From Sulfitobacter geojensis (lineage in GTDB: Bacteria > Pseudomonadota > Alphaproteobacteria > Rhodobacterales > Rhodobacteraceae): a stretch of 64,000 nt of DNA. Below the pieces are notes generated by a model. That model worked only from the letters and a program-made list of their open reading frames with translations, had not been told where the DNA came from and searched no databases. The stretch lies in the NCBI RefSeq assembly GCF_000622325.1, contig NZ_JASE01000005.1:1302001-1366000 (forward strand), given 5' to 3'. How positions within the stretch are numbered: the first letter of the stretch is position 1; each line of letters begins with the position of its first letter. Positions 7,196-22,018 of this stretch are shown here, in pieces. A program made the position numbers and the translations under genes.

Positions 7196-7600
7196 TTAAG
7201 GCCCGTGGTGAAACTGAGCGATAATGCGAGATGCGGTCGCTTCGTTGATCGCCAGGATCGTGTTGTAAAGAGTTGCAATTCTTAGCAAGGACTTAACGTC
7301 GACGTCGTGGGGCATAGCCGAGAGTGGGTCGATGAAGAAGAACAGAGCATCGAGGCGCCTCTCGGCTATCATCGCCCCAATTTGTGCGTCCCCGCCGAGA
7401 GGCCCGCTTTTAAGGCAGGTAACGTCCAAATCCACTTCGCGGGCAAGCCGTCCTCCGGTGGTTCCCGTGCCGTAAAGATCGAATACAGCCAATGTCGATC
7501 TGTGAGAGCGTGCCCACTCGATCATGGTGTCTTTTTTCAGATCGTGGGCGACCAAGGCGATTGATCGAAAATTCACATCCCGTGTTTCAGAGATGTTCAT
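7196..7600 (-). CDS. mgsA: Methylglyoxal synthase
   Basis: A 134-residue cytosolic enzyme that turns dihydroxyacetone phosphate into methylglyoxal and phosphate. Relative to the E. coli enzyme as I recall it, the key residues fall at identical positions: H19 and D20 in LVAHD, the phosphate loop TGTTGG (45-50), catalytic D71 in SGPLGGDAQ, D91 in FIDPL, and H98 and D101 in PHDVDV. It is about 18 residues shorter at the C-terminus. The ATG at 7600 has GGAGCG upstream and lies inside the end of the GntR gene (14-base overlap), so the two are translated together. Its presence beside a pathway expected to yield DHAP is suggestive. Confidence 0.88.
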   Translation of the reverse strand: MNISETRDVNFRSIALVAHDLKKDTMIEWARSHRSTLAVFDLYGTGTTGGRLAREVDLDVTCLKSGPLGGDAQIGAMIAERRLDALFFFIDPLSAMPHDVDVKSLLRIATLYNTILAINEATASRIIAQFHHGP

Positions 7601-8516
7601 CGTTTCGCTCCGTATCGTGTGCCCAGTTCCGTGCCAGTGGGGATTTGCGCTTGAGGGCACCACTCAGGTGTTGTCGCATCCTGTAAGACGCATCTGCGAC
7701 ATTGCCTGATTCCAGATATGACAGGATCTCCAAGTGCTCGGTGCATTGCTCAATCAGACGCTCGCAGTTCACTTCGGCGCGATACTCCATTAAACGGCGC
7801 ATCCGGTTCACCCTTTGAAGGGCCATGTAGAAAAAGGGATTTCCCGATAGTTTGATAAGTTCCTCGTGGAAGAGCGCACCGTTTTGAAGAAGAGCTTCGC
7901 CAGGTGTGCTGCTTAAATCCATGTTTAGCATGCCTTCCTGAATGCGTCGCTGTTCATCAAGGATCTTGTGATCAAGCTGAAAAGAAGGCTCCAGCATGGC
8001 CGTGGGTTCGATAGCCATTCTAAATCTGTAAATTTCGTCGAATGCCTCTGGTGTCTTGGCCACGGGCAGAAGGCGCCACCCGTATCCCTCTTTGCGTTCT
8101 GCCCAACCTTCGCGAACGGCCCTGACCAGCAGATCTGCGGCTTTGGCTTTGGTCCAGCCGTATCGCTGCCGTAGGAAATGTTCAGCTACCTCTTCGGGGA
8201 TCTGGTTCGTCAGCCAGTCATTCGCAAATGTTTGATAGTCGTCCGTATCTGTTGGTGCCGAATCTGCCAATCCGTCCTGATACGAAGCCGGAAGACTGTC
8301 TGCGACAAAGTAACCTCGGTTGGGCTGTCGGATTAAAACGTCTTGGATCGCCAGGCTTTCAAGTGCCTCTCTTACGGGGGTGCGCGATACACCATAACGA
8401 TCTGCGATATTCTGGGCGCTGATATGTTGACCCCCAGACAGGGTTCCAGAGACGATGTCGTGCAACAACCGATTGGATATATTCTTGGAAAGCTCGCTGC
8501 TTCGTGCTGCCATCAT
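7587..8516 (-). CDS. GntR/FadR-type regulator with an extra central domain
   Basis: A 309-residue regulator. The N-terminal GntR winged helix (about 8-70) has GGQHISAQNIADRYGVSRTPVREALESL. A central segment (about 85-160) contains a second helix-turn-helix-like stretch (WTKAKAADLLVRAVREGWAERK). The C-terminal FCD ligand domain (about 165-290) has FRMAIEP and FHEELIKLSGN motifs. It is longer than the usual 220-250 residue FadR-type protein because of the central insert. It diverges from the TctC operon, is co-translated with mgsA, and is the obvious regulator of both. The start may be 8516 or the adjacent ATG at 8513. Confidence 0.88.
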   Translation of the reverse strand: MMAARSSELSKNISNRLLHDIVSGTLSGGQHISAQNIADRYGVSRTPVREALESLAIQDVLIRQPNRGYFVADSLPASYQDGLADSAPTDTDDYQTFANDWLTNQIPEEVAEHFLRQRYGWTKAKAADLLVRAVREGWAERKEGYGWRLLPVAKTPEAFDEIYRFRMAIEPTAMLEPSFQLDHKILDEQRRIQEGMLNMDLSSTPGEALLQNGALFHEELIKLSGNPFFYMALQRVNRMRRLMEYRAEVNCERLIEQCTEHLEILSYLESGNVADASYRMRQHLSGALKRKSPLARNWAHDTERNDEHL

Positions 8517-8880
8517 GATCTCCAGTGCCGGTCGTAGCTGTTTTGCAGATTGTATCGGTGCTTAAGTATAAGTCCAATTTTTTGGTTTTGCACATGGTAA
8601 AAACCGAAAGGTGGCCGAAGATGGGTTGTTTTCGCCAAGTATTTGAGTCCGCTACGGCTCTCTCGGGCCGGTTTCGTGGGCGTCTTGGCGTCGAGAACGG
8701 CAGCATGAATCCCATGGGTTTACGAATCTCTATGTATTTCAACGTATTAGGTGCCCTTGCTGAGTTGTGGATACCAGAATTTGGCTTTTTGGCATCAAAA
8801 GAGCAAATTTCATTTGGCTTTTTGTGTGCAAATAAGCAATCATAACCCCAGTGCGAGATTCGCACTACGGAGGACAAAAC
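8517..8880. promoter_or_regulatory. Divergent control region of gntR-mgsA and the TctCBA operon
   Basis: This 364-bp intergenic region has no convincing gene. It is AT-richer than its surroundings and contains a 13-bp direct repeat near the TctC side. A possible TTGGCT/AATCAT promoter pair at 8815-8843 points toward tctC. A related AT-rich stretch (TTTTTTGGTTTTGC near 8577-8590) lies near the gntR side. Confidence 0.55.
8779..8824. repeat. Two 13-bp direct repeats 33 bp apart (operator candidates)
   Basis: ATTTGGCTTTTTG occurs exactly at 8779-8791 and again at 8812-8824. The 33-bp period is about three DNA turns, so a protein bound to both would sit on the same face. The second copy overlaps the putative -35 of the TctC promoter. 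GntR proteins usually bind palindromes, so the identity of the binding protein is open. Confidence 0.5.
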
Positions 8881-9885
8881 ATGGGAGGACACAAGATGTT
8901 CGCAAAATACACTCGTATTGGCGCCGTCGCTTTGGCAGTGACTTTTTCTGCTGCAACAGCGTCTACAGCACAGGATTTTCAACCGGAAAGCCCCCAGTGC
9001 ATCGCACCATCCAACCCGGGTGGGGGTTGGGATTTTATCTGCCGCACTACGGCACGCTACTTGTTTGATCTTGGCGTTATCGAAGATTCCATGCAGGTCA
9101 CAAACATGTCCGGTGGCGGAGGCGGCGTAGCCTTTGCGCATGTCACCAAAGAGCGCAACGAAGACAATAACCTGATTGTCGCCGCCTCTATGAGCACCAG
9201 CGCCCGTATCGCGCAGGGCATTTATGAGGGTGCGACCCAGGACGACGTTCACTTCCTTGCTACGTTCGGCGCGGAATATGGCGCGATTGCTGTTCGTGCT
9301 GACTCCGAATTCGAGACATTGACGCAAATGATGGACGCGATCCTCGCAGACCCGCGCTCCGTTGGCATTGCAGGCGGTTCCTCTGTTGGTAGCTTTGACC
9401 ACATCAAGCCGATGCTTGTCGCGCGTGAGGCCGGCTTGGAAGATGTGACCCAGATGAAATACGTCTCGTTCGATGGCGGTGGCGAGGCAATGACGGGGCT
9501 GCTTTCGGGTTCTGTTGAGGCGCTTTCGGGTGACTTCTCCGAGATGCTCGGTTTTCTGGAATCTGGTGATATCCGCATCATCGGCATCATGGCCCCCGAA
9601 CGCCTTGAGAACTTTCCCGATATCCCGACAGCACGCGAGCAAGGTTATGATGTCGTGGGTGCAAACTGGCGTGGTCTTTACATGCCGGCGGGTGCATCGG
9701 ATGAGGCCAAAGAGTTCTGGTCAAATGCGATCCAGACAATGGCGGAAGATCCTGGGTTTCAGGCCACATTGGAAGAGGCTGCAATCGCGCCCTTCAACAA
9801 TTTTGGCGATGACATGCACAACTTCGTTGCAGGAAGCATTGCCGATATCGAAAAGCTGTCCCGTGAGATCGGCATCATCGAATAA
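8881..9885 (+). CDS. TctC-type periplasmic substrate-binding protein (TTT system)
   Basis: The solute receptor of a tripartite tricarboxylate transporter, about 334 residues. It has a signal peptide (FAKYTRIGAVALAVTFSAAT, cleavage after STA before QDFQ). The TctC hallmarks follow: PSNPGGGWDFICR, NMSGGGGGVAFAHV, GSSVGSFDHI and PDIPTAREQGYDVVGANWRG. Two starts are possible. The ATG at 8881 has CGGAGGA upstream; the ATG at 8896 lies after GGGAGGACACAAG. It is the first gene of the large catabolic operon. TctC specificity cannot be read from sequence; known members bind citrate, tartrate, aromatic acids and others. Confidence 0.9.
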   Translation: MGGHKMFAKYTRIGAVALAVTFSAATASTAQDFQPESPQCIAPSNPGGGWDFICRTTARYLFDLGVIEDSMQVTNMSGGGGGVAFAHVTKERNEDNNLIVAASMSTSARIAQGIYEGATQDDVHFLATFGAEYGAIAVRADSEFETLTQMMDAILADPRSVGIAGGSSVGSFDHIKPMLVAREAGLEDVTQMKYVSFDGGGEAMTGLLSGSVEALSGDFSEMLGFLESGDIRIIGIMAPERLENFPDIPTAREQGYDVVGANWRGLYMPAGASDEAKEFWSNAIQTMAEDPGFQATLEEAAIAPFNNFGDDMHNFVAGSIADIEKLSREIGIIE

Positions 9886-9899
9886 AATCTGAAAAATCC

Positions 9900-9927
9900 G
9901 GCCCGGACGGCTTTGGCAGTTCGGGCC
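9900..9927 (+). promoter_or_regulatory. Intercistronic hairpin between tctC and tctB
   Basis: GGCCCGGAC and GTTCGGGCC form a 9-bp stem with one G-T pair and a 10-base loop just after the tctC stop. No T-run follows. Such hairpins commonly protect the abundant binding-protein message or cause partial termination, giving more receptor than membrane subunit. Confidence 0.55.
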
Positions 9928-9952
9928 AATCTCACATCTTGGGGAGGCAAGC

Positions 9953-10384
9953 ATGAGTGATCGCATATTCGGCGGCTTTGGATTGGCCTTGGCCATTTTC
10001 TACATCTGGGCCGCATCAATAATCAAAGACAGCTTTATGGTCGATGTGGTGGGGCCGCGAGCGTTTCCCTATATCGTTGGCACAATCATCGCGCTGTGTT
10101 CGCTGTATTTTATCCTGCGCCCCGATGACGAACCCGACTGGCCACACATGCGAGAATTCACGGAAATCGTTTTCGCTGCGGCGGTGATGTTCGCCTACTG
10201 CTTTGCATTGCCAGAGCTTGGTTTCGTGATCTCCACGATCTTTGCTACGGCCTACCTGACCTGGCGTTTGGGGACCGCACCGCTTTGGTCGCTTGTCGTT
10301 GGCTTGGGCACATCTGTTGGCATTTACGTCGTATTTCACCTGATCCTCGGCCTCGCGTTGGCCAAAGGTCCACTTGGTTTCTGA
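9953..10384 (+). CDS. TctB-type small membrane subunit (TTT system)
   Basis: A 143-residue four-helix membrane protein of the TctB family. Hydrophobic segments lie at about residues 7-22, 38-50, 75-95 and 110-135, and PRAFPYIVGTIIA is typical. GGGGAGG precedes the ATG. It lies between tctC and tctA as in canonical tctCBA operons and would partner TctA in the inner membrane. Confidence 0.88.
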   Translation: MSDRIFGGFGLALAIFYIWAASIIKDSFMVDVVGPRAFPYIVGTIIALCSLYFILRPDDEPDWPHMREFTEIVFAAAVMFAYCFALPELGFVISTIFATAYLTWRLGTAPLWSLVVGLGTSVGIYVVFHLILGLALAKGPLGF

Positions 10385-10396
10385 GGAGGTCAGCGC

Positions 10397-11938
10397 ATGG
10401 ATACCTTAGCACTTCTCGCCGATGGCTTTGCCATCGCCCTAACCCCGCAAAATCTGTTCCTTGCAGTCATGGGGTGTTTTCTTGGCACGCTTATGGGCGC
10501 GCTTCCGGGGCTTGGCCCCGCGAACGGTGTGGCCATCCTTATCCCGATCGCATTTTCACTGGGTCTGGGGCCTGTTGCGTCGTTGATCCTATTGGTCAGT
10601 GTTTACTATGGCGCGATGTATGGTGGCCGGATCAGCTCGATCTTGCTGAACATTCCCGGCGATGAACCGGCCATGATGACCTGTCTGGACGGCTATCCGA
10701 TGGCCCTGCAAGGCAAAGCGGGAGAGGCACTGTCCCTGTCCGGTGTTGCATCCTTTGTCGGCGCGTTCTTTGCCACATGTGGGTTGGTTATTCTTGCACC
10801 GCAGCTGGTCAAGGTCGCCCTGCTGTTTGGCCCAGCCGAATATTTCGTACTCTTTACTGTCGCCTTTGCGACGCTTGGCGGCATCTCATCGACAAATCAG
10901 GCAAAGTCGGCTTTTGCGGCAGCTCTTGGCCTTGGGATTGCAATGATCGGCAGCGACTCGCAGACAGGGTCGCAACGGTTCACCTTTGATCATATCCATC
11001 TATATGACGGTATCGATTTCCTGATCGCCATCGTGGGCCTGTTTGCCCTTAGTGAGGTGTTCATCTTCCTTGAGCATCACCGCGGTGGGGCTGTTGGTTC
11101 GGCCAAGGCCACAAAGGTTGGCCGGATCATGCCTGACTTTGCTATGATCAAGCGTTGTATACCCTCGATGGCGCGGGGCACGGGCATTGGTTTCTTCTCT
11201 GGCGTCCTACCGGGTGCGGGTGCGTCCTTGGGATCATTCCTGGCCTATTCCCTCGAAAAGCAGACCGTCGATCGGGATGGCAAGACCTTTGGCAAAGGCG
11301 ACCCGCGCGGCGTTGCCGCACCAGAGGCGGGTAACAACGCAGCCTCGGGCGGAGCACTTGTTCCCATGCTTGCCCTTGGCGTGCCAGGTTCCGGCACCAC
11401 AGCCGTTCTGCTTGCCGTCTTGTTGCAACTGAACATCACGCCCGGGCCGCTGCTTTTCCAGAAAAATCCGGATGTTGTCTGGGGGCTTATCGCGTCGCTG
11501 TTCATCGCTAACTTTATCCTATTGGCGATGAACATTCCACTGGTTGGCATCTTTACCCGTGTATTGATGGTGCCAACGCGCATCCTGATGCCCATCGTCG
11601 CGATGATCTCGTTCGTTGGCATCTACAGCATCACGGGCTCCAGCTTTGATGTGATGTTGATGGTTGGCTTCGGCATCATGGGCTGGGTCTTGCGCAAGCT
11701 TGATGTCTCACTTGTTCCGGTGATCCTCGGGATCCTGCTGGGCAACCAGATGGAAGTGAACCTGCGTCGTGCCATGACAATCTCGGATGGCGACTGGTTG
11801 ATCCTTGTTGGCAGTCCGCTTGCCATCATCCTTTGGGGCGTCGCGATTACCGGTTTCGTCCTGCCCATGCTGATGGGCCGCCGGATGAAAAAGCGCATGG
11901 AAGCTGCACGCAACGAAGAAGAATTCGTCGGCGACTAA
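10397..11938 (+). CDS. TctA-type large permease subunit (TTT system)
   Basis: A 513-residue integral membrane protein with about 12 helices, the usual TctA length. Signature motifs include GALPGLGPANGVAILIPIAF near residues 35-54, YGGRISSILLNIPGD, and GVAAPEAGNNAASGGALVP followed by ALGVPGSGTTAVLL. It forms the Na+- or H+-coupled channel of the transporter with TctB. GAGGAGG lies just upstream of the start, 12 bp after tctB. Confidence 0.92.
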   Translation: MDTLALLADGFAIALTPQNLFLAVMGCFLGTLMGALPGLGPANGVAILIPIAFSLGLGPVASLILLVSVYYGAMYGGRISSILLNIPGDEPAMMTCLDGYPMALQGKAGEALSLSGVASFVGAFFATCGLVILAPQLVKVALLFGPAEYFVLFTVAFATLGGISSTNQAKSAFAAALGLGIAMIGSDSQTGSQRFTFDHIHLYDGIDFLIAIVGLFALSEVFIFLEHHRGGAVGSAKATKVGRIMPDFAMIKRCIPSMARGTGIGFFSGVLPGAGASLGSFLAYSLEKQTVDRDGKTFGKGDPRGVAAPEAGNNAASGGALVPMLALGVPGSGTTAVLLAVLLQLNITPGPLLFQKNPDVVWGLIASLFIANFILLAMNIPLVGIFTRVLMVPTRILMPIVAMISFVGIYSITGSSFDVMLMVGFGIMGWVLRKLDVSLVPVILGILLGNQMEVNLRRAMTISDGDWLILVGSPLAIILWGVAITGFVLPMLMGRRMKKRMEAARNEEEFVGD

Positions 11939-11988
11939 GCCGGCTTGTAAATGACAACGGCCACAGTGCCGATCTAAGGAGACTAAAG

Positions 11989-13074
11989 ATGCGTATTATG
12001 ACACTGCCCTGTGATGGCATTGGCCCTGAAATCATGGCAGCGACACTTGAAGTCGTCGAGGCCGCCAACACGCGGTTTGATTTGGGGCTAACTTTTGAAG
12101 AGGTGATTTCGGGTTTTGACAGCCTAAAGAAGCACGGGATTACCCTGCAAGAAAGCGTGCTGGACCGCGCACGCAATGAATTTGACGGTGTAATCCTTGG
12201 TACGCAATCGCACATGGACTACCCAGCCTTGGCCGAAGGGGGGCGCAACGTCTCTGCCGGGTTCCGGATCGGGCTGGACCTTTATGCCAACGTCCGTCCG
12301 GCGCGGACCCGCGATTTCATCCCGAACAAGGCACCGGGCATGGATCTGGTGATTATGCGCGAAGCGACCGAAGGTTTTTATCCCGATCGCAACATGTTCA
12401 AAGGGGTCGGTGAAATGATGCCTGACCCTGATATGGCGCTGTCGGTGCGCAAAATTACCCGTCACGGGTCGATGCGGATCTGCCGTGAAGCTTTCAAGCT
12501 GGCTATGCAACGCAAAAAAAAGGTCGCCGCGATACACAAGGCCAACTCCTTCTTGATGACGGACGGGTTGTTTTTGGAATGCTTCCGCGAAGTCGCCAAA
12601 GACTTCCCCGAGGTTGAGACCGAAGAGATCATCGTCGATGCCTATGCAGCACTGCTGGTGCGCAAGCCCGAAGCCTATGATGTGGTCGTCGCGACGAACT
12701 TTTATGGCGATATCCTGTCCGATTTGGCATCAGAGTTGTCTGGGTCACTCGGACTGGCGGGTTCGATCAATGCCAATGCTGAAACAGGCCTGTGCTGTGC
12801 CCAAGCGCAACACGGTTCAGCGCCGGACATCCAAGGCAAAAATGTCGCGAACCCGACCTCGTTGATCCTTTCGGCGGCGATGATGCTGAGCTGGCTGGGC
12901 GAACAGCGCGGTGTTCAGAAACTCATGGACGCGGGGCAAGCCATATCCGAGGCCGTCGACGCAACCATCGACGATCCATCCAAGCGGACACGCGACCTTG
13001 GCGGGAACGTGAACTGTGACGCGTTTGGCTCTCTTGTGGCGCAACAACTCGTGGGCGCAACCATCGCGGCCTAA
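11989..13074 (+). CDS. Isocitrate/isopropylmalate/tartrate dehydrogenase-family enzyme
   Basis: A 361-residue NAD(P)-dependent beta-decarboxylating dehydrogenase. It begins MRIMTLPCDGIGPEIM and carries VRPARTRDF, the conserved REATEGFY and ITRHGSMRICREAF segments, the catalytic-lysine region KVAAIHKAN, and the metal-binding YGDILSDLASEL. A long frame begins at 11833, but TAAGGAGA just before 11989 fixes the start. Family members act on D-malate-like backbones (malate, tartrate, isocitrate, isopropylmalate), and the specificity here is not readable. It is not the housekeeping Icd, which in this group is an unrelated longer type. It follows the transporter and should oxidise the imported compound or an isomer. 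Confidence 0.85.
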   Translation: MRIMTLPCDGIGPEIMAATLEVVEAANTRFDLGLTFEEVISGFDSLKKHGITLQESVLDRARNEFDGVILGTQSHMDYPALAEGGRNVSAGFRIGLDLYANVRPARTRDFIPNKAPGMDLVIMREATEGFYPDRNMFKGVGEMMPDPDMALSVRKITRHGSMRICREAFKLAMQRKKKVAAIHKANSFLMTDGLFLECFREVAKDFPEVETEEIIVDAYAALLVRKPEAYDVVVATNFYGDILSDLASELSGSLGLAGSINANAETGLCCAQAQHGSAPDIQGKNVANPTSLILSAAMMLSWLGEQRGVQKLMDAGQAISEAVDATIDDPSKRTRDLGGNVNCDAFGSLVAQQLVGATIAA

Positions 13075-13085
13075 GGATCCTCCCC

Positions 13086-13137
13086 GCGGGTTGAAGACCC
13101 GCACCAACTGGTGGCGTTGCATCATGCGACGCCACCA
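13086..13137 (+). promoter_or_regulatory. Two consecutive hairpins in the operon
   Basis: GCGGGT...ACCCGC (13086-13102) is followed by a strong stem of up to 14 bp with one mismatch (13109-13137, arms beginning TGGTGGCGT and ending ACGCCACCA). They fill the only sizeable gap after tctA in an otherwise tightly packed operon. No T-run follows, so a processing or stability role, or a weak attenuator, is more likely than a full terminator. Confidence 0.5.
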
Positions 13138-13154
13138 CCCTTTGCAAGCAGAAA

Positions 13155-13823
13155 ATGATGACACCTTCACCACGCATTGCCCTGATCCATGCCACGCGGG
13201 TCGCGATCGAACCAATTGAGGCGGCAGCAGCATCCATTTGGCCGGAGGCAGAAACGATATCAATTCTGGAGGAGGGGCTTTCGGTTGACCGTGCAAAAGC
13301 CCTGTCGCTTTCGACGGAGTTGTCAGAGCGCATCAAGGCGCTTAGCCAATATGCACAAGCAATCCATGCTGACGGGATTCTGTTTACCTGCTCGGCCTTC
13401 GGGCCTGCGATTGCCCAAGCAAATGCGCAAAGCGATATACCAGTGATGAACCCAAACGAAGCGATGTTTGATGCCGCGCTGGCGCAAGGGCAGCGCGTTG
13501 CGATGATCTATACTTTCCAACCGGCCGCAGACGGTATGGAAGAAGAGTTTCGAGAAACGGCCGCGGCACGAGGGATTGCCGCCCGCATCACATCATATTT
13601 TTGCGACGGCGCGCTGGATGCAAAACGGGCAGGCGACAATGACCGGCATAATCAGCTGATCGCCCAGACTGCTGCCGTTATCGAGGGGGCTGATGTCATC
13701 TTGCTGGCGCAGTTTTCTATGGCGGGTGCCGCAGAGGCAGTTCGGCAATCTGTCACCCTTCCTGTGCTCACCAGTCCAGAGTCGGCGATTCAGGAAATGC
13801 GCCGTCGCATTGCCGCGAAATAG
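13155..13823 (+). CDS. Asp/Glu racemase-superfamily enzyme lacking the second cysteine
   Basis: A 222-residue protein of the Asp/Glu/hydantoin racemase fold. The first catalytic cysteine is present in FTCSAFGPAI (C79). At the place of the second cysteine the sequence reads ILLAQFSMAGA, with no cysteine. Two-base racemases need both, so this is more likely an isomerase or decarboxylase (arylmalonate decarboxylase uses one cysteine). The ribosome site is weak and the start could be either of two adjacent ATGs. Its place in the operon suggests it acts on a pathway acid. Confidence 0.75.
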   Translation: MMTPSPRIALIHATRVAIEPIEAAAASIWPEAETISILEEGLSVDRAKALSLSTELSERIKALSQYAQAIHADGILFTCSAFGPAIAQANAQSDIPVMNPNEAMFDAALAQGQRVAMIYTFQPAADGMEEEFRETAAARGIAARITSYFCDGALDAKRAGDNDRHNQLIAQTAAVIEGADVILLAQFSMAGAAEAVRQSVTLPVLTSPESAIQEMRRRIAAK

Positions 13824-13832
13824 AGAGGACAA

Positions 13833-15113
13833 ATGATGCTGATTGGCGTTATTGCAGACGACTTCACGGGGGCGAGTGACATCGCCAACACCCTTGCCAA
13901 AGGCGTGCAGCCCGAAGGTGGGTTGCGCACCGCGCAATATCCAGGTGTGCCTAATGGTCCGGCGGATCCGCAAATCGAAGTGGGCGTTGTCTCGCTCAAG
14001 AGCCGCTCGGCGCCTGTGCAAGAGGCGGTGCGTGAAAGTCTGGATGCGCTGAATTGGCTTAAGGCGCAGGGCTGCAAACAGATCATCTTCAAATATTGCT
14101 CAACGTTTGATTCAACACCTGCGGGCAACATAGGGCCGGTGGCTGATGCATTGGCCGAAGCGCTTGACGCGACCGGGGTCGTGGTGTGCCCGGCTTTCCC
14201 GACCACGGGGCGAACCGTTTACCAAGGACATTTGTTTGTCGGCGACACGCTGCTCAGCGAGTCGGGTATGCAGCACCATCCGCTCACCCCGATGACGGAC
14301 CCGGACTTGCGGCGTTTCTTGCGCCTTCAGACGAAGTCTCGCGTCGGGCACATCCCGCTTTCGATCGTTTCCCAAGGTGTTGAACCCACCCGCGACGCGA
14401 TCAATGGCGCGACGGATCGCTATGTTGTCGCGGACGCTGTCAGCGACGCAGATTTGTTGACGCTCGGGGCGGCCCTTGCTGATGCCAAGTTGATTACCGG
14501 TGGATCGGGAATTGCCTTGGGGCTTCCTCGCAACCTGATTGAGAGCAGAAAGTCGAACGCACGGGCGGCAGATGCGGCCCATGTGAGTGGGCCGGAGGCC
14601 ATTCTGGCCGGGTCATGTTCTGGCGCAACCCGTGGTCAGGTTGATCTGCACGCGCAGGCGCATCCGACCCTGGCCATTGATGTCCCCGGGGTGATGGAGG
14701 ACCGTGTTACGGTCGAAACATTGGTGGCGTTCTACGATGCAAATCAGGGGCGGGCACCATTGGCCTATTCCTCCGGCTCACCTGATGAGGTCCTCGCGCT
14801 CCAGTCGCGGTATGGGCGCGAAGCCGTTGCTGAAAAACTGGATAACCTCTTTGCCGATACCGCTAAGGCGCTTGTTTCAAAAGGATACCGGCGCATTGTT
14901 GTCGCGGGTGGAGAAACATCCGGTGCGGTCGCCCAAGCGGTCACCGACGCTCTGGGCACAGCGGCAATGACGGTCGGGGCAGAGATCGACCCCGGCGTTC
15001 CGATCCTGACCTTGGGGGATGGACCATCTGTGGTGTTGGCGCTCAAGTCGGGCAACTTCGGGGCAGCGGATTTCTTTGCCAAGGCCCTACGGATGATGGA
15101 GGGGCGATCATGA
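13833..15113 (+). CDS. otnK: DUF1537 four-carbon acid sugar kinase (3-oxo-tetronate kinase-like)
   Basis: A 426-residue ATP-dependent kinase. The N-terminal substrate domain begins MLIGVIADDFTGASDIAN and contains KYCSTFDSTPAGNIG and CPAFPTTGRTVYQGHLF. The C-terminal nucleotide domain has LAGSCSGATRGQ and VVAGGETSGAVAQA. These are the marks of OtnK proteins, which phosphorylate 3-oxo-tetronate at O4. The length fits. GAGAGGA precedes the ATG pair. It overlaps the aldolase gene by ATGA, the usual OtnK-OtnC pairing. The usual partners OtnI and LtnD are absent. Confidence 0.85.
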   Translation: MMLIGVIADDFTGASDIANTLAKGVQPEGGLRTAQYPGVPNGPADPQIEVGVVSLKSRSAPVQEAVRESLDALNWLKAQGCKQIIFKYCSTFDSTPAGNIGPVADALAEALDATGVVVCPAFPTTGRTVYQGHLFVGDTLLSESGMQHHPLTPMTDPDLRRFLRLQTKSRVGHIPLSIVSQGVEPTRDAINGATDRYVVADAVSDADLLTLGAALADAKLITGGSGIALGLPRNLIESRKSNARAADAAHVSGPEAILAGSCSGATRGQVDLHAQAHPTLAIDVPGVMEDRVTVETLVAFYDANQGRAPLAYSSGSPDEVLALQSRYGREAVAEKLDNLFADTAKALVSKGYRRIVVAGGETSGAVAQAVTDALGTAAMTVGAEIDPGVPILTLGDGPSVVLALKSGNFGAADFFAKALRMMEGRS

Positions 15114-15751
15114 CCGAGCAGGAAACAGAACTTCGGCATCAGATGGTGCGCCTTTGTAAGTCGTTGTTCGACAGGGGATTTTCGGTAGGCAGTGCAGGCA
15201 ATGTGTCTGCCAAACTGCCAGATGGCATCCTTATGACGCCAACCAATTCGACGCTTGGATCGCTTGAGGCCGACCGGATTTCAAAGGTTGATACCTCTGG
15301 CAAGCATGTGTCTGGGGATCGTCCTTCAAAGGAAGTCTTCTTGCACCAGGCGTTCTATGAAACGCGGCCGCAGGCTGGGGCGGTTGTGCATTTGCATTCC
15401 ACATGGGCGACGGCGCTGTCATGTCTTGCGGATACCGATCCTGATGACTGTATCCCGCCCCTGACACCCTATGTTGTGATGCGTGTAGGGCGGGTGAAAC
15501 TATTGCCATATGTCAAACCGGGGGATCCCAAAATGGGGGATATGATCCGTGATCTGAAGGGTGATTTTTCCGCAGCCTTGCTTGCCAATCACGGCCCTGT
15601 CGTCAGCGGTAAAGATCTGTTTTCAGCCGTTTGTGCGGCAGAAGAGTTAGAAGAAACCGCCAAACTTCTGATCGCACTGGAAGGGCGTAAAACGCGCCTT
15701 TTGACACCCGATCAGGTGACCGAGCTTAACAACACATTCAAAGGACTATAG
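15110..15751 (+). CDS. otnC: Class II aldolase/decarboxylase (OtnC-like)
   Basis: A 213-residue zinc aldolase of the fuculose-phosphate aldolase family. GSAGNVSAKLPDG binds the phosphate, HLHST supplies two zinc histidines, and LANHGPVV supplies a further one. OtnC proteins decarboxylate 3-oxo-tetronate 4-phosphate to DHAP and CO2, and the ATGA overlap with the kinase gene supports that assignment. The product DHAP links this operon to the methylglyoxal synthase encoded divergently. Confidence 0.85.
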   Translation: MTEQETELRHQMVRLCKSLFDRGFSVGSAGNVSAKLPDGILMTPTNSTLGSLEADRISKVDTSGKHVSGDRPSKEVFLHQAFYETRPQAGAVVHLHSTWATALSCLADTDPDDCIPPLTPYVVMRVGRVKLLPYVKPGDPKMGDMIRDLKGDFSAALLANHGPVVSGKDLFSAVCAAEELEETAKLLIALEGRKTRLLTPDQVTELNNTFKGL

Positions 15752-16230
15752 TGCATATGAAAACTGCTGATCTGATCGATGATCACGCCGCCGATTTAAC
15801 CTTGGTTCATTTGCCGTTCCGCCAATTTGGCACCCGCAGTCATTTCGCGGGGCAGATACAGACGGTCAAATGTTTTGAGGACAACACCGAAGTGCGTGCG
15901 CAGTTGGAAACTCCAGGCAGGGGCCGCGTTCTTGTGATTGACGGGGGCGGTTCGACCCGGATTGCTTTGTTGGGGGATATGCTGGCGGAGCTCGCGATCA
16001 AAAACGGTTGGGCGGGCCTGATACTGAACGCCGCAATTCGTGATAGCGCGGATATCAACACGATGGACACACTGGTTTTCGCCCTTGGAACGTCCCCTGT
16101 CAAAAGCGCCAAGGAAGGCTGGGGCAAGGTAGGCACGAAGATCAGTTTTGGTGGCGTCGCCTTTGAGCCTGATGACTGGGTTTATGGGGACGCCGACGGG
16201 GTGCTTTTCAGTAAAAAGAAACTGGTTTGA
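15751..16230 (+). CDS. RraA/HMG-aldolase-like protein
   Basis: A 159-residue member of the RraA family (begins MKTADLIDDH; VLVIDGGGSTRIALLGD). An aspartate in LLGD is followed after exactly 20 residues by the Arg-Asp pair in NAAIRD. That is the metal-binding D-X20-R-D spacing of class II pyruvate aldolases of this fold. E. coli RraA reads VRQ there, as I recall it. It may therefore be a retro-aldolase or oxaloacetate decarboxylase rather than an RNase E regulator. It starts at GTG 15751 (sharing one base with the otnC stop, AAAGGA upstream) or ATG 15757. Confidence 0.75.
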   Translation: MHMKTADLIDDHAADLTLVHLPFRQFGTRSHFAGQIQTVKCFEDNTEVRAQLETPGRGRVLVIDGGGSTRIALLGDMLAELAIKNGWAGLILNAAIRDSADINTMDTLVFALGTSPVKSAKEGWGKVGTKISFGGVAFEPDDWVYGDADGVLFSKKKLV

Positions 16231-17279
16231 AGTCGCATCTTGGTTCATTCGGCGCGATCTTGGCGACCGTTATTCTGGCAGGTGCCGGCGGGTGGCTCGT
16301 TTCTCTGACGGGCATACCTTTGGGGTGGATGATCGGCTCTATGATCGTGACCGCCAGTGCATCATTGATGCAGCTGCCGATACGCAAGCCTGTGCTTTTG
16401 CTGGACGTGGTCCGTGCTGCCATCGGATTGATGCTGGGCGCGGCCTTCACGCATGAACTGTTTGCGTCGTTAGGCGCATGGTGGGTGACCCTACTTTTCC
16501 TGATACTGTTGCTCGGGGTTATGTTCGGTGTCGGTTTTTTTGCCCTTCGCCGCGTTGCGCGTTTCGCCCCGGTGACGGCCGCCCTCTGCGCCATGCCGGG
16601 TGGTATCGCAGAGATGGTCCTGCTTTCAGAGCGTGAAGGCGCAGACCAGGCACAGGTGGCCATTGTCCACGCGCTGCGCATTTCGCTGGCGATTTTGGTG
16701 ATCCCGCTGCTGATTGGCCTGATCGCCACGGTTGAGCCAGCGGCGGGGGCTTCGACCAAGTCTACCGGGCTAAGTTTGACGGACGGGTTTTGGATCGCAA
16801 TCTGTATCCTTGCGGGTCTTTTGGCGCGGGGCAGGGTGCGGATTCCAGCGCCGATTGTGATTGTACCGATGCTGGTCAGCGCAGTGCTGCACCTTAGCGG
16901 TTTGACGGCATTCGACGTTCCCCCAACGATCACCATCGTCATTCAGGTATTCATCGGGATCAATGTTGGTGGGCGGTTTGCAGGGGTTTCTGTGAAGAGT
17001 CTGATGGCAGCACTTGGTGCGGCTATTCTGGTTGTCACATTGCAAATTGGGATCGCTTTTGGCGGGGCGTTGCTGGTCGCGGGCACAGTCGGGGTGAATC
17101 CTGTCGGTCTGGTACTTGCGTATTCGCCGGGCGGGTTGGCGGAAATGTCGATCATCGCGCTTAGCATCGGAGGCGACGTTGCCTTCGTTGGGGTCCACCA
17201 CATTTTTCGGGTCATGCTTGCCTTGGTATTGGCCCCTCTTTTGCTGTCATGGATCATCAAAAAGTCTGAGGGTGGATAA
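16227..17279 (+). CDS. AbrB-family (ammonia monooxygenase-like) membrane protein
   Basis: A 350-residue membrane protein with two repeated AbrB halves and about ten hydrophobic segments. Each half has a glycine-rich GWMIGSMI/PGGIAEM or SPGGLAEMSIIAL motif. The start codon is TTG at 16227, overlapping the preceding stop. The AbrB family name comes from a regulatory phenotype. Many members sit beside TTT or TRAP transporters and probably act in transport of related acids. Here it may be a second permease or an exporter. Confidence 0.75.
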   Translation: MKSHLGSFGAILATVILAGAGGWLVSLTGIPLGWMIGSMIVTASASLMQLPIRKPVLLLDVVRAAIGLMLGAAFTHELFASLGAWWVTLLFLILLLGVMFGVGFFALRRVARFAPVTAALCAMPGGIAEMVLLSEREGADQAQVAIVHALRISLAILVIPLLIGLIATVEPAAGASTKSTGLSLTDGFWIAICILAGLLARGRVRIPAPIVIVPMLVSAVLHLSGLTAFDVPPTITIVIQVFIGINVGGRFAGVSVKSLMAALGAAILVVTLQIGIAFGGALLVAGTVGVNPVGLVLAYSPGGLAEMSIIALSIGGDVAFVGVHHIFRVMLALVLAPLLLSWIIKKSEGG

Positions 17280-19855
17280 TGAAGAATGTATCAGTCGATG
17301 CAGGGGATTCAGGCCTGCAGGTCATAGATCTGCCCGGAATTCTGGGCGAGGCGCTGGTGAATTTACCAATGGTGTTGAGGCTGTTGTGCGAGAACCACGT
17401 AAGGAAGGGTGGCGCGGTTGAGCCGATGCTGGAAGCGATGCGTAATCCGAGCAACAGGGGGTTCGAGTTTTCCTTTCTGCCCAATCGGTTATTGATGCAT
17501 GACACGACCTGCACACCGGCGCTAGCGGATATCGCGGCGATGCGCGATGCGGTCGCCGCCGCTGGTGGTAACCCCGCTATATTGAGCCCGACTTTGCCCG
17601 TTGATGTATCGGTGGATCATTCGCTTGCCGTAGATCAATATGCGAGCGCAGGCGCTTTCCAGACAAATGCCAAGAACGAGTATACCCGCAATGCCGAGCG
17701 CTATGCTTTTATGAAATGGGCGTCTGAAAGCATGGAGGGGGTGCGGGTGCATCCGCCCGGGACCGGGATCATGCACACAATCAATCTCGAACAGCTTGCC
17801 ACCGTGTTGGAGGTTGGCAAAGACGGTGTTGCGCATCCCGACATGTTATTGGGAACAGACAGCCACACGCCGATGATCAATGGCATCGGGATCATGGCAT
17901 GGGGTGTCGGCGGTCTTGAAGCCGAAAGCGTCATGTTCGGCCAGCCGGTATCGCTCGCTGTGCCGAAAACAGTCGGCGTGCGATTGATCGGGTGCCTGCC
18001 CGCCGGAAGCTTCGCAACTGACCTTGCGCTGGAAGTGACGCACAGGCTTCGTGAAATTGGGGTGACTGGCGAATTCGTCGAGTTTTTTGGCCCCGGGGTT
18101 GCGACCCTAAGTGCCGATGCGCGCGCGGTTGTCGCAAACATGGCGCCGGAATACGGCGCATCAACCGGATATTTTCCGGTGGACAAATCAACGGTCGATT
18201 ATCTTGCACGAACAGGCCGGGGTGCGGACCGTTATGCGCTCATCGAGCCCGCGTTTCGTGCCATGGGCCTTTGGTTCGATCCGGATGCCGCACCGGATTT
18301 CGACAGGGTGGTAGAGATCGATCTATCGACCATTGCGCCGATCATCGCCGGCCCACGTCGGCCCCAAGACCGATGCGCGCCCCGCGATGCCCAAGCGCGG
18401 ATAGAGAATGCAATCGGGCGACCTCTTGGACACATCGGCAGGGATGAAAGCTGCCCCCCCGACGGCGCAGTGGCGATTGCTGCGATCACCAGCTGCACCA
18501 ATACGTCTGATCCATCGCTTCTTGTTGCTGCTGGCATTCTGGCACGAAATGCACGGGAAAGAGGACTGACTTCGGCGCCATGGGTCAAAACATCCCTCGC
18601 CCCCGGTTCGCCCTCAGCGCGGGCGTTATTGCAACGGGCCGGTCTGGCCGATGATCTGTCAGCGCTTGGGTTTGATGTCGTCGGTTTTGGCTGCACCACA
18701 TGTATCGGAAACTCAGGCCCGCTGCCGGACGCAATCGAGCTTGCGCTAAATGACGGAAAGGCGGTTTCCGCTGTTCTGTCGGGCAACCGTAACTTCCCCG
18801 GCCGGGTGCACCCCAAGCTTGATCTTGGATTTCTTGCGTCTCCGCCCTTGGTCGTGGCCTATGCCGTGAAAGGCGATTTGAAAGGGGATATTGCGAGGGA
18901 TTCATTAGGGGTTGGAACGGACGGGGAGGACGTCTTTTTGGCCGACATCTGGCCTGATGCAGAGGATATAGCCGTGGCTGTGGCCAAGGCGCAAAGTGCA
19001 GATGATGTGCCCCGCGCCTTTGCCGGTGCAAGCCAAAGTGCGGCCTGGAACAAGATAGATGCGCCAAGACAGAGCCAATTTCCGTGGAACGCGGCTTCGC
19101 GCTACCTCAGGCCCCCGAAATTCGCATCAGCCGTGCAACAATCGCGTCTGGGTCATTACCAGGCAAAGCCACTGATGGTGTTGGGCGACGACATCACGAC
19201 TGACCATATCTCTCCGGCGGGGGCGATCTCTGCGGATAGCGCCGCGGGCAAGTGGTTGGTCTCTCACGGTGCCAAGCGTGATGACTTGAATGTTTACGCA
19301 GCCTACCGCGGCAATTGGGAGGTGATGCTTAGGGGATTGTTCACCAACAAACTGGTGCGCAACTATCTACAGGATGGGTTGGCCCCTGACGATACCGTCC
19401 TCGAAGATGGACGTGTTATGCGGGTGTTTGAAGCTGCGGAGGCGATGGCACAGCTCGGGCAAGATGCAGTGCTGCTCGCGGGGGAGCGGTATGGTACGGG
19501 ATCGAGTCGCGATTGGGCGGCCAAAGGGGTGGCGCTTTTGGGGGTCAGAGCCGTCATCGCACGAAGCTTTGAGCGTATCCACCGTACTAACCTGATCGGT
19601 ATGGGAATTTTACCACTACAAATTGCCGACGATTTTGTCCCGCAATCTGCTGGCGTTTCAGCGTTGGACAACATGGAAATCGATGCGCCGATTGCGAGAA
19701 TAGGCGTCCAGCAAAAGGTGACTGTTCGACGTCATAAACCAAATGGATCAGTGCAGAGTATTTTGTGTCGCGCCGCCGTGGAAACTCGACATGAAGTCGA
19801 ACTCCTCCGAGTGGGTGGTGTGTTGTCTGGTATCCTGACATCTTGCTTGCGGTAA
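17279..19855 (+). CDS. Aconitase-family hydratase with an altered substrate signature
   Basis: An 858-residue AcnA-type protein. The three iron-sulfur cysteines are present: C406 in TSCTNTSDPS, and C472 and C475 in GCTTCIGNSGPL. The C-terminal swivel domain has RYGTGSSRDWAAKG and RSFERIHRTNL. The usual LQDFTGVPAVVDLAAMR segment reads LMHDTTCTPALADIAAMR (about residues 72-89), with His replacing a substrate-binding Gln. ATCGFFPVD reads ASTGYFPVD. It shares one base with the preceding stop. The context indicates a pathway-specific aconitase acting on a citrate-like acid, not the housekeeping enzyme. Confidence 0.87.
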   Translation: MKNVSVDAGDSGLQVIDLPGILGEALVNLPMVLRLLCENHVRKGGAVEPMLEAMRNPSNRGFEFSFLPNRLLMHDTTCTPALADIAAMRDAVAAAGGNPAILSPTLPVDVSVDHSLAVDQYASAGAFQTNAKNEYTRNAERYAFMKWASESMEGVRVHPPGTGIMHTINLEQLATVLEVGKDGVAHPDMLLGTDSHTPMINGIGIMAWGVGGLEAESVMFGQPVSLAVPKTVGVRLIGCLPAGSFATDLALEVTHRLREIGVTGEFVEFFGPGVATLSADARAVVANMAPEYGASTGYFPVDKSTVDYLARTGRGADRYALIEPAFRAMGLWFDPDAAPDFDRVVEIDLSTIAPIIAGPRRPQDRCAPRDAQARIENAIGRPLGHIGRDESCPPDGAVAIAAITSCTNTSDPSLLVAAGILARNARERGLTSAPWVKTSLAPGSPSARALLQRAGLADDLSALGFDVVGFGCTTCIGNSGPLPDAIELALNDGKAVSAVLSGNRNFPGRVHPKLDLGFLASPPLVVAYAVKGDLKGDIARDSLGVGTDGEDVFLADIWPDAEDIAVAVAKAQSADDVPRAFAGASQSAAWNKIDAPRQSQFPWNAASRYLRPPKFASAVQQSRLGHYQAKPLMVLGDDITTDHISPAGAISADSAAGKWLVSHGAKRDDLNVYAAYRGNWEVMLRGLFTNKLVRNYLQDGLAPDDTVLEDGRVMRVFEAAEAMAQLGQDAVLLAGERYGTGSSRDWAAKGVALLGVRAVIARSFERIHRTNLIGMGILPLQIADDFVPQSAGVSALDNMEIDAPIARIGVQQKVTVRRHKPNGSVQSILCRAAVETRHEVELLRVGGVLSGILTSCLR

Positions 19856-20995: not shown

Positions 20996-22018
20996 TTATG
21001 CGGCTTGTTTTAGATGTTGCAAGCGGCGTTGGCGGATTGTCTGTTTCTTAATCTTTTCCCTTTCTCTGAGAATGGCCTTGTCGCGGCCGAAGTAGACGTC
21101 GGCTGGTGTGACGTTGTTCAGGCTCTCGTGGTAACGTTGGTTGTTATAATATTCGACGAAGGCACCGATCTGGCGCTCAAGATCGCCGGGCAAGTAGTAG
21201 TTTTCGAGCAGAACCCGGTTCTTCATGGTCTGGTGCCAGCGTTCGATCTTGCCTTGGGTCTGCGGATGGAATGGTGCGCCCCGAACATGCGTCATTTTTT
21301 GATCCTCCAACCACTTGGCCAGATCGCCGGAGATGTAGCATGAACCGTTGTCGCTGAGCAGGCGTGGCTTGTGACGCACAACCGCCTGGTCGCAACCAGA
21401 CGCCGTCAGCGCCAGTTCGATCGTGTCTGTCATGTCCTCGGCACGCATGTTGGTGCAAAGCTTCCACGCAATGATGTAGCGGCTGTAATCATCGAGGATC
21501 GTGCTCAGATAATACCAACCCCAGCCAATGATCTTGAAGTAGGTGAAGTCTGTTTGCCACATCTCGTTGATGGTCGTGGTTTTGTCTTTGAACTCCTCGG
21601 CCGCTTTAATGACCACATAGTCAGGTGCTGTTATCAGGTCCGCTGCTTTGAGAATGCCCCTCTCGGGGTCATGCTGCGCATAACCCTGTCGGGCAGTGGA
21701 TAAGCTGATGATTCAGAAACAAAATACCGTTTCTCATCAGTGTATTTGACGGCCAGTTCCCGCGTGGTCAGCGCTTCATGTTCCAGCGCGAACTCGATCA
21801 GGTCATCACGACGGGCATCAGGGATGCGGTTCCAGACCGATCCTGGACGTGGGGATCGGTCTGCCAGTCCATCCAGGCCGCCGTCAATATAGAGATCATA
21901 CCATCGATAGAATCGTCGTGCGCGGGATGCCCAGCATGTCGAGGGTTTGTTTCACCGGCAAGTGTGATCCCTCAACGGTGCGGATGATCTCCAGTTTCTC
22001 GGACGCAGGGTATCTCAT
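20996..22018 (-). pseudogene. IS3-family transposase orfB, frameshifted
   Basis: The start ATG at 22018 overlaps the orfA stop (ATGA). The N-terminus reads MRYPASEKLEIIRTVEG. One extra base near 21913 shifts the frame before FYRWYDLYIDGGLDGL. An apparent 41-bp insertion at about 21658-21698 shifts it again after YFVSESSAY. From 21616 the integrase core is intact, with MWQTDFTY, LDDYSRYIIAW, LLSDNGSCY and GKIERWHQT supplying the DDE residues. The 1 plus 41 bases restore the original frame, but stops intervene. Both lesions are inferred against the remembered family consensus. Confidence 0.75.

Follow-up and report, generated by a model that had tools for sequence, protein, structure and literature searches.

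The subject of this work is an operon in a window of 64,000 nucleotides from Sulfitobacter geojensis (contig NZ_JASE01000005.1, positions 1,302,001 to 1,366,000 of the forward strand; coordinates below are those of the window), in which tctCBA-idh-rac-otnK-otnC-rraA-abrB-acn lie on the plus strand and gntR-mgsA are divergent. We propose, in a reading whose chances we put at about even, that this operon is linked to GntR and serves the catabolism of a hydroxylated acid of the citrate type, and in many relatives probably of its lactone as well. A dehydrogenase of the Iso_dh family (idh) would form an oxo-tetronate, which would pass through a protein of the Asp/Glu racemase fold (rac), OtnK and OtnC to dihydroxyacetone phosphate (DHAP). 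As far as searched, the operon is a recurring, undescribed variant of the OtnK/OtnC route. If this is true, the route has a second entrance, and testable functions follow for genes that public records name 'isocitrate/isopropylmalate dehydrogenase family protein', 'aspartate/glutamate racemase family protein' or 'arylsulfatase', and 'aconitate hydratase AcnA'. More tentatively, and with a chance clearly short of even, there may be an undescribed pathway in alpha-, beta- and gammaproteobacteria, carried by numerous large plasmids too, that degrades a branched acid with hydroxyl groups (e.g. 2-hydroxymethyltartrate and its lactone). It would comprise three new enzyme activities: an oxidative decarboxylation by Iso_dh to an oxo-tetronate, the isomerisation of oxo-tetronate by a one-Cys protein of the racemase fold, and the conversion of a 2-substituted acid of the citrate type by an aconitase variant.

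All twelve genes were confirmed by profile searches, in the families and directions that an earlier reading of this DNA from the sequence alone had given them. OtnK (13833..15113, plus strand) and OtnC (15110..15751, plus strand) exceed the NCBIfam cut-offs of the 3-oxo-tetronate kinase family (NF043035, 522.7 against 350) and the oxo-tetronate decarboxylase family (NF043034, 313.6 against 250), and are thus accepted members of the 3-oxo-tetronate families, as had been claimed. OtnC is of the Aldolase_II type with PF00596 as its only match, and no F_bP_aldolase-type OtnC was found in the operon. By family membership, OtnK would phosphorylate 3-oxo-tetronate and OtnC would decarboxylate the product to DHAP and CO2. 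MgsA (7196..7600, minus strand), which passes both methylglyoxal synthase models (NF003559, 171.6 against 84 bits; TIGR00160, 150.9 against 146.9 bits), belongs to a DHAP-consuming family and could take up this DHAP. The tripartite tricarboxylate transporter is complete, with the solute-binding protein TctC (8881..9885, plus strand; PF03401, 72.8 bits), TctB (9953..10384, plus strand; PF07331, 72.6 bits) and TctA (10397..11938, plus strand; PF01970, 498.3 bits), and at the family level would import the acid. Idh (11986..13074, plus strand; PF00180, 264.5 bits), standing in place of LtnD, is the proposed oxo-tetronate-forming oxidative decarboxylase; to judge from its residues and context, it would oxidise an alpha-hydroxy acid with a beta-carboxylate and drop that carboxylate as CO2. 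Rac (13155..13823, plus strand; PF01177, 57.2 bits) has one conserved Cys and most likely would isomerise 2-oxo- to 3-oxo-tetronate, the task of OtnI in the known pathway. Finally, a variant AcnA-type aconitase (acn, 17279..19855, plus strand) and RraA, with the fold of hydroxy-oxo-acid aldolases (15751..16230, plus strand; NF006875, 202.3 against 136; NF009134, putative aldolase, 183.1, under 196), may tentatively be taken as a probable second branch for a related 2-substituted citrate-type acid.

The L-threonate/D-erythronate pathway runs through LtnD-OtnI-OtnK-OtnC (Zhang 2016, as described in PMC12540250), an Aldolase_II-type OtnC going with the 3-oxo route (PMC12540250), and a three-step threonate bypass employs 2-OtnK and an F_bP_aldolase-type 2-OtnC (Guo 2024, as described in PMC12540250). 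Set beside these routes as that article presents them, the operon shares OtnK, an Aldolase_II-type OtnC and the expected end product DHAP with the former, but it is without LtnD and OtnI and has Iso_dh and rac, a tricarboxylate-type transporter, an aconitase and RraA. With the bypass it shares the absence of OtnI, whereas its OtnC is of the Aldolase_II and not the F_bP_aldolase type and LtnD is missing. The absence of LtnD and OtnI from the locus, already remarked in the sequence-only reading, held up in the Pfam and NCBIfam assignment of the operon genes, each of which falls in a family other than that of LtnD. No description of this gene set was found in the open-access literature among the matches listed; an account in subscription journals is possible.

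It is very improbable that this is a usual operon for threonate or erythronate, some genes of which have been displaced. Its OtnK and OtnC do belong to the families of that pathway, but LtnD occurs in none of the 31 relatives introduced below, and a classical LtnD-OtnK-OtnC-OtnI set stands elsewhere in the same genome. This genome has three OtnK places over the cut-off, one of which (L181, contig C2) comprises LtnD (425.6 against 350), OtnK (554 against 350), OtnC (290.4 against 250) and an OtnI-like isomerase that, at 290.4, stays under its cut-off of 325. The window operon is therefore not the missing half of a threonate route, and the idea that its kinase and aldolase work in a tetronate route of their own, one already described, did not apply, since the classical route is encoded elsewhere. 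At another place (L182), OtnK-OtnC lie beside a different Iso_dh and a Gfo/Idh/MocA-like protein (the latter under its cut-offs), with neighbours that were named by eye from the sequence as a metallo-beta-lactamase-fold protein and a tripartite ATP-independent periplasmic (TRAP) transporter.

The suggestion that the genes form one co-inherited catabolic unit gained support from a synteny survey, in which the set recurred across genera and classes. To find relatives of idh, we searched 248 genomes of the family (35 at E ≤ 1e-50; four at ≥ 86%, own included), GTDB contigs (the best 80 of 573, of which 53 at approximately 40% identity were set aside except for three references) and plasmids (32 records, 18 opened). 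Flanks were fetched for 20 of 40 family idh places and 20 of 24 rac places. The relative set amounts to 31 loci besides the window from alpha-, beta- and gammaproteobacteria, with idh at 61-96% identity; counts refer to the fetched DNA, and as several loci end at contig ends, absences are weak. Excluded from the counts were an acn fragment (L273), an AcnD with a broken frame (L311) and one weak kinase match (L244), and L258 and L164 were pooled in two entries of the Fisher tables. Within the 31 loci we found gntR in 26, rac in 24, otnK in 20, otnC in 16, acn in 13, amidohydrolase in 12, aldehyde dehydrogenase (ALDH) in 10 and cupin in 10, followed by tctA and abrB (8 each), rraA, beta-propeller and ABM (6 each), CitMHS (5), mgsA (4), pyk (3), tpiA and GAPN (2 each) and an OtnI-like gene in 1, which scored 204.7 and thus under the cut-off of 325. 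LtnD was found in 0 of the 31, DenD not having been searched for in the relatives. Rac is present at each of the 20 otnK loci and each of the 13 acn loci of this set, otnK is present in 12 of the 13 acn loci, and ALDH occurs with cupin in 10/10. The same set spans a different class in G592, where one contig holds idh, otnK, otnC, acn, rraA, rac, beta-propeller, cupin and ALDH within 32 kb (L258 and L164, 326000-357900). Such repetition in other genera and classes places the grouping beyond chance.

The expected direction of the product, toward DHAP and triose phosphate, agrees with mgsA in the operon and with tpiA, pyk or GAPN near idh in four of the 31 relatives (L062, L262, L264, L266); according to the plasmid annotation, tpiA adjoins otnK-otnC in L262, and pyk and GAPN adjoin otnK in L266. 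In two further loci (L234, L238) mgsA adjoins otnC-otnK, and none of LtnD, OtnI, rac and Iso_dh lies in reach. Large plasmids of Sinorhizobium, Ensifer, Rhizobium, Agrobacterium, Shinella, Pantoea, Cupriavidus and Paraburkholderia carry the cluster, which also occurs in Rhodobacterales, and these hosts therefore hint that an acid of plants or of the sea has been overlooked. Seven of the 31 relatives, L065, L258 and L262 among them, carry a protein of a solute-binding family (PF00497 in L065), which lacks an obvious signal peptide and is perhaps a cytoplasmic enzyme.

With regards to idh, its score is under the cut-off of all 18 NCBIfam models listed, and the isocitrate, isopropylmalate, homoisocitrate and tartrate dehydrogenase equivalogs do not claim it. 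A maximum-likelihood tree of 86 Iso_dh sequences placed it in a clade of 30 rows (clade A, support 100/99), 22 of which have otnK in the fetched DNA. Arg119, Arg129, Arg153, Tyr160, Lys230, Asn232, Asp283, Asp307 and Asp311 (E. coli Icd numbering) are kept in 31/31 clade-A sequences, and we take these Arg, Tyr, Lys and Asp positions to have their Iso_dh roles in oxidative decarboxylation, so that the activity first suggested for the dehydrogenase is in line with its residues. Positions 113/115 are Asn/Ser and not Ser/Asn (31/31). In isocitrate dehydrogenase, Ser113 and Asn115 presumably bind the gamma-carboxylate, and the swapped pair may still bind a polar group. The neighbouring clade of 21 has TcuA or a 4-oxalomesaconate tautomerase-like gene alongside in 17 cases. 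This sister clade, seen in L269, L271, L274 and several of L041-L055, stands beside TcuA/TcuB tricarballylate genes and 4-oxalomesaconate tautomerase (491 bits in L269, above the cut-off of 440), and is possibly a tricarballylate or aconitate system.

Canonical Iso_dh chemistry converts HOOC-CHOH-C(R1)(R2)-COOH into HOOC-CO-CH(R1)(R2), and 3-oxo-tetronate is HOOC-CHOH-CO-CH2OH. If 2-oxo-tetronate is the product of Iso_dh, the precursor is therefore HOOC-CHOH-C(OH)(COOH)-CH2OH, i.e. 2-hydroxymethyltartrate, which would be the simplest acid to fit this chemistry, its identity as the substrate being unproven. With its five carbons, two carboxyl groups and ability to close to a gamma-lactone, it would suit both the transporter and the lactonase-like genes found in many of the 31 relatives. 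Pentaric acids were rejected, as the canonical enzyme needs a carboxylate on the carbon beside the oxidised carbinol. Itatartarate would yield 4-hydroxy-2-oxobutanoate and not an oxo-tetronate, and was kept solely for the possible acn-RraA branch.

A link between Iso_dh and OtnK also appears outside clade A. The six members of what we call module B (L182, L208, L226, L230, L242, L249) lie beside otnK and form a clade of their own (100/99), apart from the group of 65 in which the others fall; it joins the DmlA clade, where the program warns that long branches may meet falsely. The label otnK requires at least 3 changes on this tree. We scored 83 OtnK loci, a part of all OtnK places: 59 with OtnI within 8 kb and 24 without. 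An A- or B-type Iso_dh occurs in 7 of the 24 loci without OtnI (the six of module B and L258) versus 0 of the 59 with it, three of the latter having an Iso_dh from the DmlA side of the tree. OtnC is in reach in 4/6 module-B loci, and neither rac nor OtnI is in reach in any. The Tyr160 position is occupied by Phe in 6/6. Since it is Tyr160 that protonates the enol left by decarboxylation, the enediol might leave module B as the 3-oxo acid, whereas clade A might make the 2-oxo acid and thus need an isomerase. Module B is possibly another undescribed route into OtnK/OtnC. The four of its loci with neighbours read (L182, L208, L230, L249) have a Gfo/Idh/MocA-like protein, and lactonase-like genes were recognised by eye in L182, L208 and L249.

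Rac contains a single invariant Cys, in the motif TCSaFG, across 30/30 homologues, and no other column holds Cys in more than 7 of the 30. A two-base racemase is therefore unlikely from its sequence. Compared by sequence with solved structures, rac gave no match at E 0.01. Its AlphaFold model, built from ten sequences (predicted local distance difference test, pLDDT, 93.2; predicted template modelling score, pTM, 0.88), has hydantoin racemase, allantoin racemase and arylmalonate decarboxylase among its nearest solved folds. The last of these, together with the one Cys, would suit an alternative in which rac resembles arylmalonate decarboxylase and idh acts like the PdxA-family decarboxylase of the L-ascorbate pathway, which Stack and Gerlt are said to have described in 2020, turning 2-C-carboxytetronate, a substituted malonate, directly into 3-oxo-tetronate. 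The L-ascorbate pathway comprises a beta-propeller protein, an amidohydrolase lactonase and a PdxA-family decarboxylase. Set beside it by description and not by sequence, our relatives are alike in carrying a lactonase, both beta-propeller and amidohydrolase types being represented, and what would be an NAD-dependent enzyme that decarboxylates a branched hydroxy acid, but their enzyme is an Iso_dh and not a PdxA, and the set ends in OtnK/OtnC. As idh retains the Arg triad and the Tyr to which we ascribe the function seen in malate-type enzymes, and as acn would be left without a role, we consider this alternative quite improbable. In L245 (7851-11744), a second racemase-fold protein with one Cys, more distant but sharing the Cys motif, lies near otnC-otnK and adjoins a pyridoxal-phosphate-dependent aldolase of the GntG family, with neither LtnD nor OtnI. 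L162 and L163 represent a variant without idh, in which rac-otnK lie near a flavin mononucleotide-type lactate-dehydrogenase-like gene (under its cut-off), a LacI regulator, a beta-propeller and a ModA-like protein in which no obvious signal peptide was seen by eye.

The divergence that had been noted for the aconitase is confirmed. Acn passes NF009520 (1102.2 against 905) and is under the cut-offs of TIGR01341 (880.1 against 945) and of the 2-methylcitrate dehydratase model TIGR02333 (AcnD; 701 against 1419.85 bits). The 16 variants, i.e. those of the window, 13 relatives and two loci found from acn, group in a single clade, with seven AcnD and two ordinary AcnA outside it. Against a control of 32 ordinary AcnA (30 of 43 places, plus those of E. 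coli and of the own genome), 40 columns that are invariant in AcnA (≥ 31/32) are altered in at least 15 of the 16 variants. Five of these carry the AcnD residue (K43R, Q89H, V97L, T216P, I231L), and most of the 40 differ from AcnD. Q89H, T216P, V97L and the loss of Arg725 are common to 16/16 variants and 7/7 AcnD, Q89 being Gln in 32/32 ordinary AcnA. This limited likeness, read from the alignment, is a hint of a 2-substituted citrate-type substrate. A change of Arg to His at R699 (human IRP1 numbering), which we take to be a substrate-binding position in aconitase, had looked diagnostic when set against two reference AcnA but was withdrawn, as this column holds His in 16/32 and Arg in 9/32 of the ordinary AcnA. 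A search of 398 genomes at E ≤ 1e-250 yielded two variants besides that of the window. In G504, acn stands with tctCBA and gntR only (L297), as a minimal unit, and the best Iso_dh reaches at most 38%, so that no close idh is present. In G464, acn lies with an MFS-like stretch and a beta-propeller lactonase, and a 58% idh with ALDH and cupin is found approximately 35 kb off.

These features would suit a different substrate, namely hydroxycitrate (garcinia or hibiscus acid), free or as the lactone. The ring would be opened by lactonases, acn would dehydrate or isomerise the acid, idh would form 3-hydroxy-2-oxoglutarate, RraA or cupin-ALDH would finish, and OtnK/OtnC would act on a downstream 4-hydroxy-3-oxo acid. 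The substrate of AcnD, with which acn shares Q89H and T216P, is itself a 2-substituted citrate, and hydroxycitrate fits acn, the lactonase-like genes of many relatives and the citrate-type transporters (tricarboxylate-type in the window, CitMHS in 5/31 relatives) better than 2-hydroxymethyltartrate does; the minimal tctCBA-gntR-acn unit of L297 agrees with it as well. However, no simple route from 3-hydroxy-2-oxoglutarate to DHAP can be drawn, and OtnK and OtnC lie over the oxo-tetronate family cut-offs. We therefore regard hydroxycitrate as unlikely, if deserving of attention. Acn and amidohydrolase as alternative entry routes were ruled out, since the two show no association within the idh loci (Fisher test, p = 0.48); the corresponding value for acn and rraA was p = 0.059.

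Several observations weigh against the proposed route from a citrate-type acid by way of idh, rac, OtnK and OtnC. The counts and Fisher tests ignore relatedness (two Pantoea and seven Rhizobiaceae loci), and 11 of the 31 idh loci have no otnK in the fetched DNA, some being cut by contig ends. L264 holds tpiA, gpmA, pyk, GAPN and ppc with no otnK within the 12 kb read on each side, and in L060, L066 and L069 idh occurs with ALDH-cupin and neither otnK nor rac in the fetched DNA. The fold search cannot separate an isomerase from a decarboxylase for rac, and both L276 (clade A) and L163 contain rac plus an OtnI/hydroxypyruvate-isomerase-like gene (both under NCBIfam cut-offs). Acn has no nameable role on 2-hydroxymethyltartrate, and neither this name nor carboxytetronate gave a match in the open-access literature. 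Rac as a plain replacement of OtnI is weakened by these two loci, which carry rac and an OtnI-like gene. Among the OtnI-bearing OtnK loci, 2/59 have rac in reach. The OtnI cut-off is no clean test, because the classical OtnI of the own genome also falls under it (290.4 against 325).

The earlier proposal of import, isomerisation, oxidative decarboxylation, phosphorylation and cleavage thus stands as to the families and their co-inheritance, but is less secure as a single linear route, against which L060, L066, L069 and L297 speak. There may be two branches, as some relatives have idh or acn without OtnK. In the extreme form, two unrelated branches would have nothing in common but the transporter and regulator. 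One, acn-RraA (with or without idh), would handle a tricarboxylic acid, and the other, rac-otnK-otnC, an acid resembling a tetronate that is produced elsewhere. The three ALDH-cupin loci without otnK would be explained in this way, as would L297 and L298, where the acn variant has no idh, rac or otnK in reach, and L161, where rac-otnK-otnC occur without idh. The constant company of rac and otnK in the idh set (20/20), the presence of otnK in 12/13 acn loci and the second Iso_dh clade that is paired with otnK and lacks rac argue against it, and we find two unrelated branches rather unlikely.

Regulation was considered next to the GntR/FCD regulator gene gntR (7587..8516, minus strand; PF00392 and PF07729 over cut-off). 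Two candidate operators (8783..8805 and 8816..8838, no strand assigned), each with 1 mismatch to a pattern that was read off these same loci, are the window's only sites at ≤ 2 mismatches. Seven Rhizobiaceae loci have a similar motif upstream of idh (2 to 4 mismatches; 0 to 4/100 shuffles as good), and four Rhizobiaceae loci have one between acn and gntR (3, 2, 2 and 0 mismatches; 18, 1, 4 and 0/200 shuffles). It was absent upstream of idh in 14 other loci tested, including two alphaproteobacteria (4 to 9 mismatches), and was not found upstream of gntR in L262 nor between ALDH and gntR in L267. For Rhodobacterales loci besides the window, 4 to 11/100 shuffles matched the motif score. Of 484 stretches of 250 bases that were taken from these loci as controls, with known sites among them, 8 reached ≤ 2 mismatches. 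The putative motif is thus supporting evidence only.

The genes are closely packed, the intervals in bases being -14 for mgsA/gntR, 364 for gntR/tctC, 67 for tctC/tctB, 12 for tctB/tctA, 47 for tctA/idh, 80 for idh/rac, 9 for rac/otnK, -4 for otnK/otnC, -1 for otnC/rraA, -4 for rraA/abrB and -1 for abrB/acn. The start of idh is ATG 11986, the mechanical TTG 11833 overlapping tctA; that of tctC was placed at 8881, compared with 8851 for the mechanical open reading frame, and mgsA starts at 7600. The gene abrB (16227..17279, plus strand) encodes a PF05145 membrane protein (249.3 bits; TIGR03082, 195.1 against 94.7). In the idh-rac gap, two stem-loops (13086..13137, plus strand; 13086-13102 and 13109-13137) reach a fold z-score of -4.22. 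No T-run follows them, no Rfam family was found in the window, and a search for a second copy in the own genome gave short chance matches only. Double stems are similar in L036, L056 and L059, partial in L038 and L037 and absent in L057 and L058, and the pair is perhaps a processing or stability element. Immediately to the right of the operon lies an integrase-core (rve) transposase fragment (20996-21616, minus strand).

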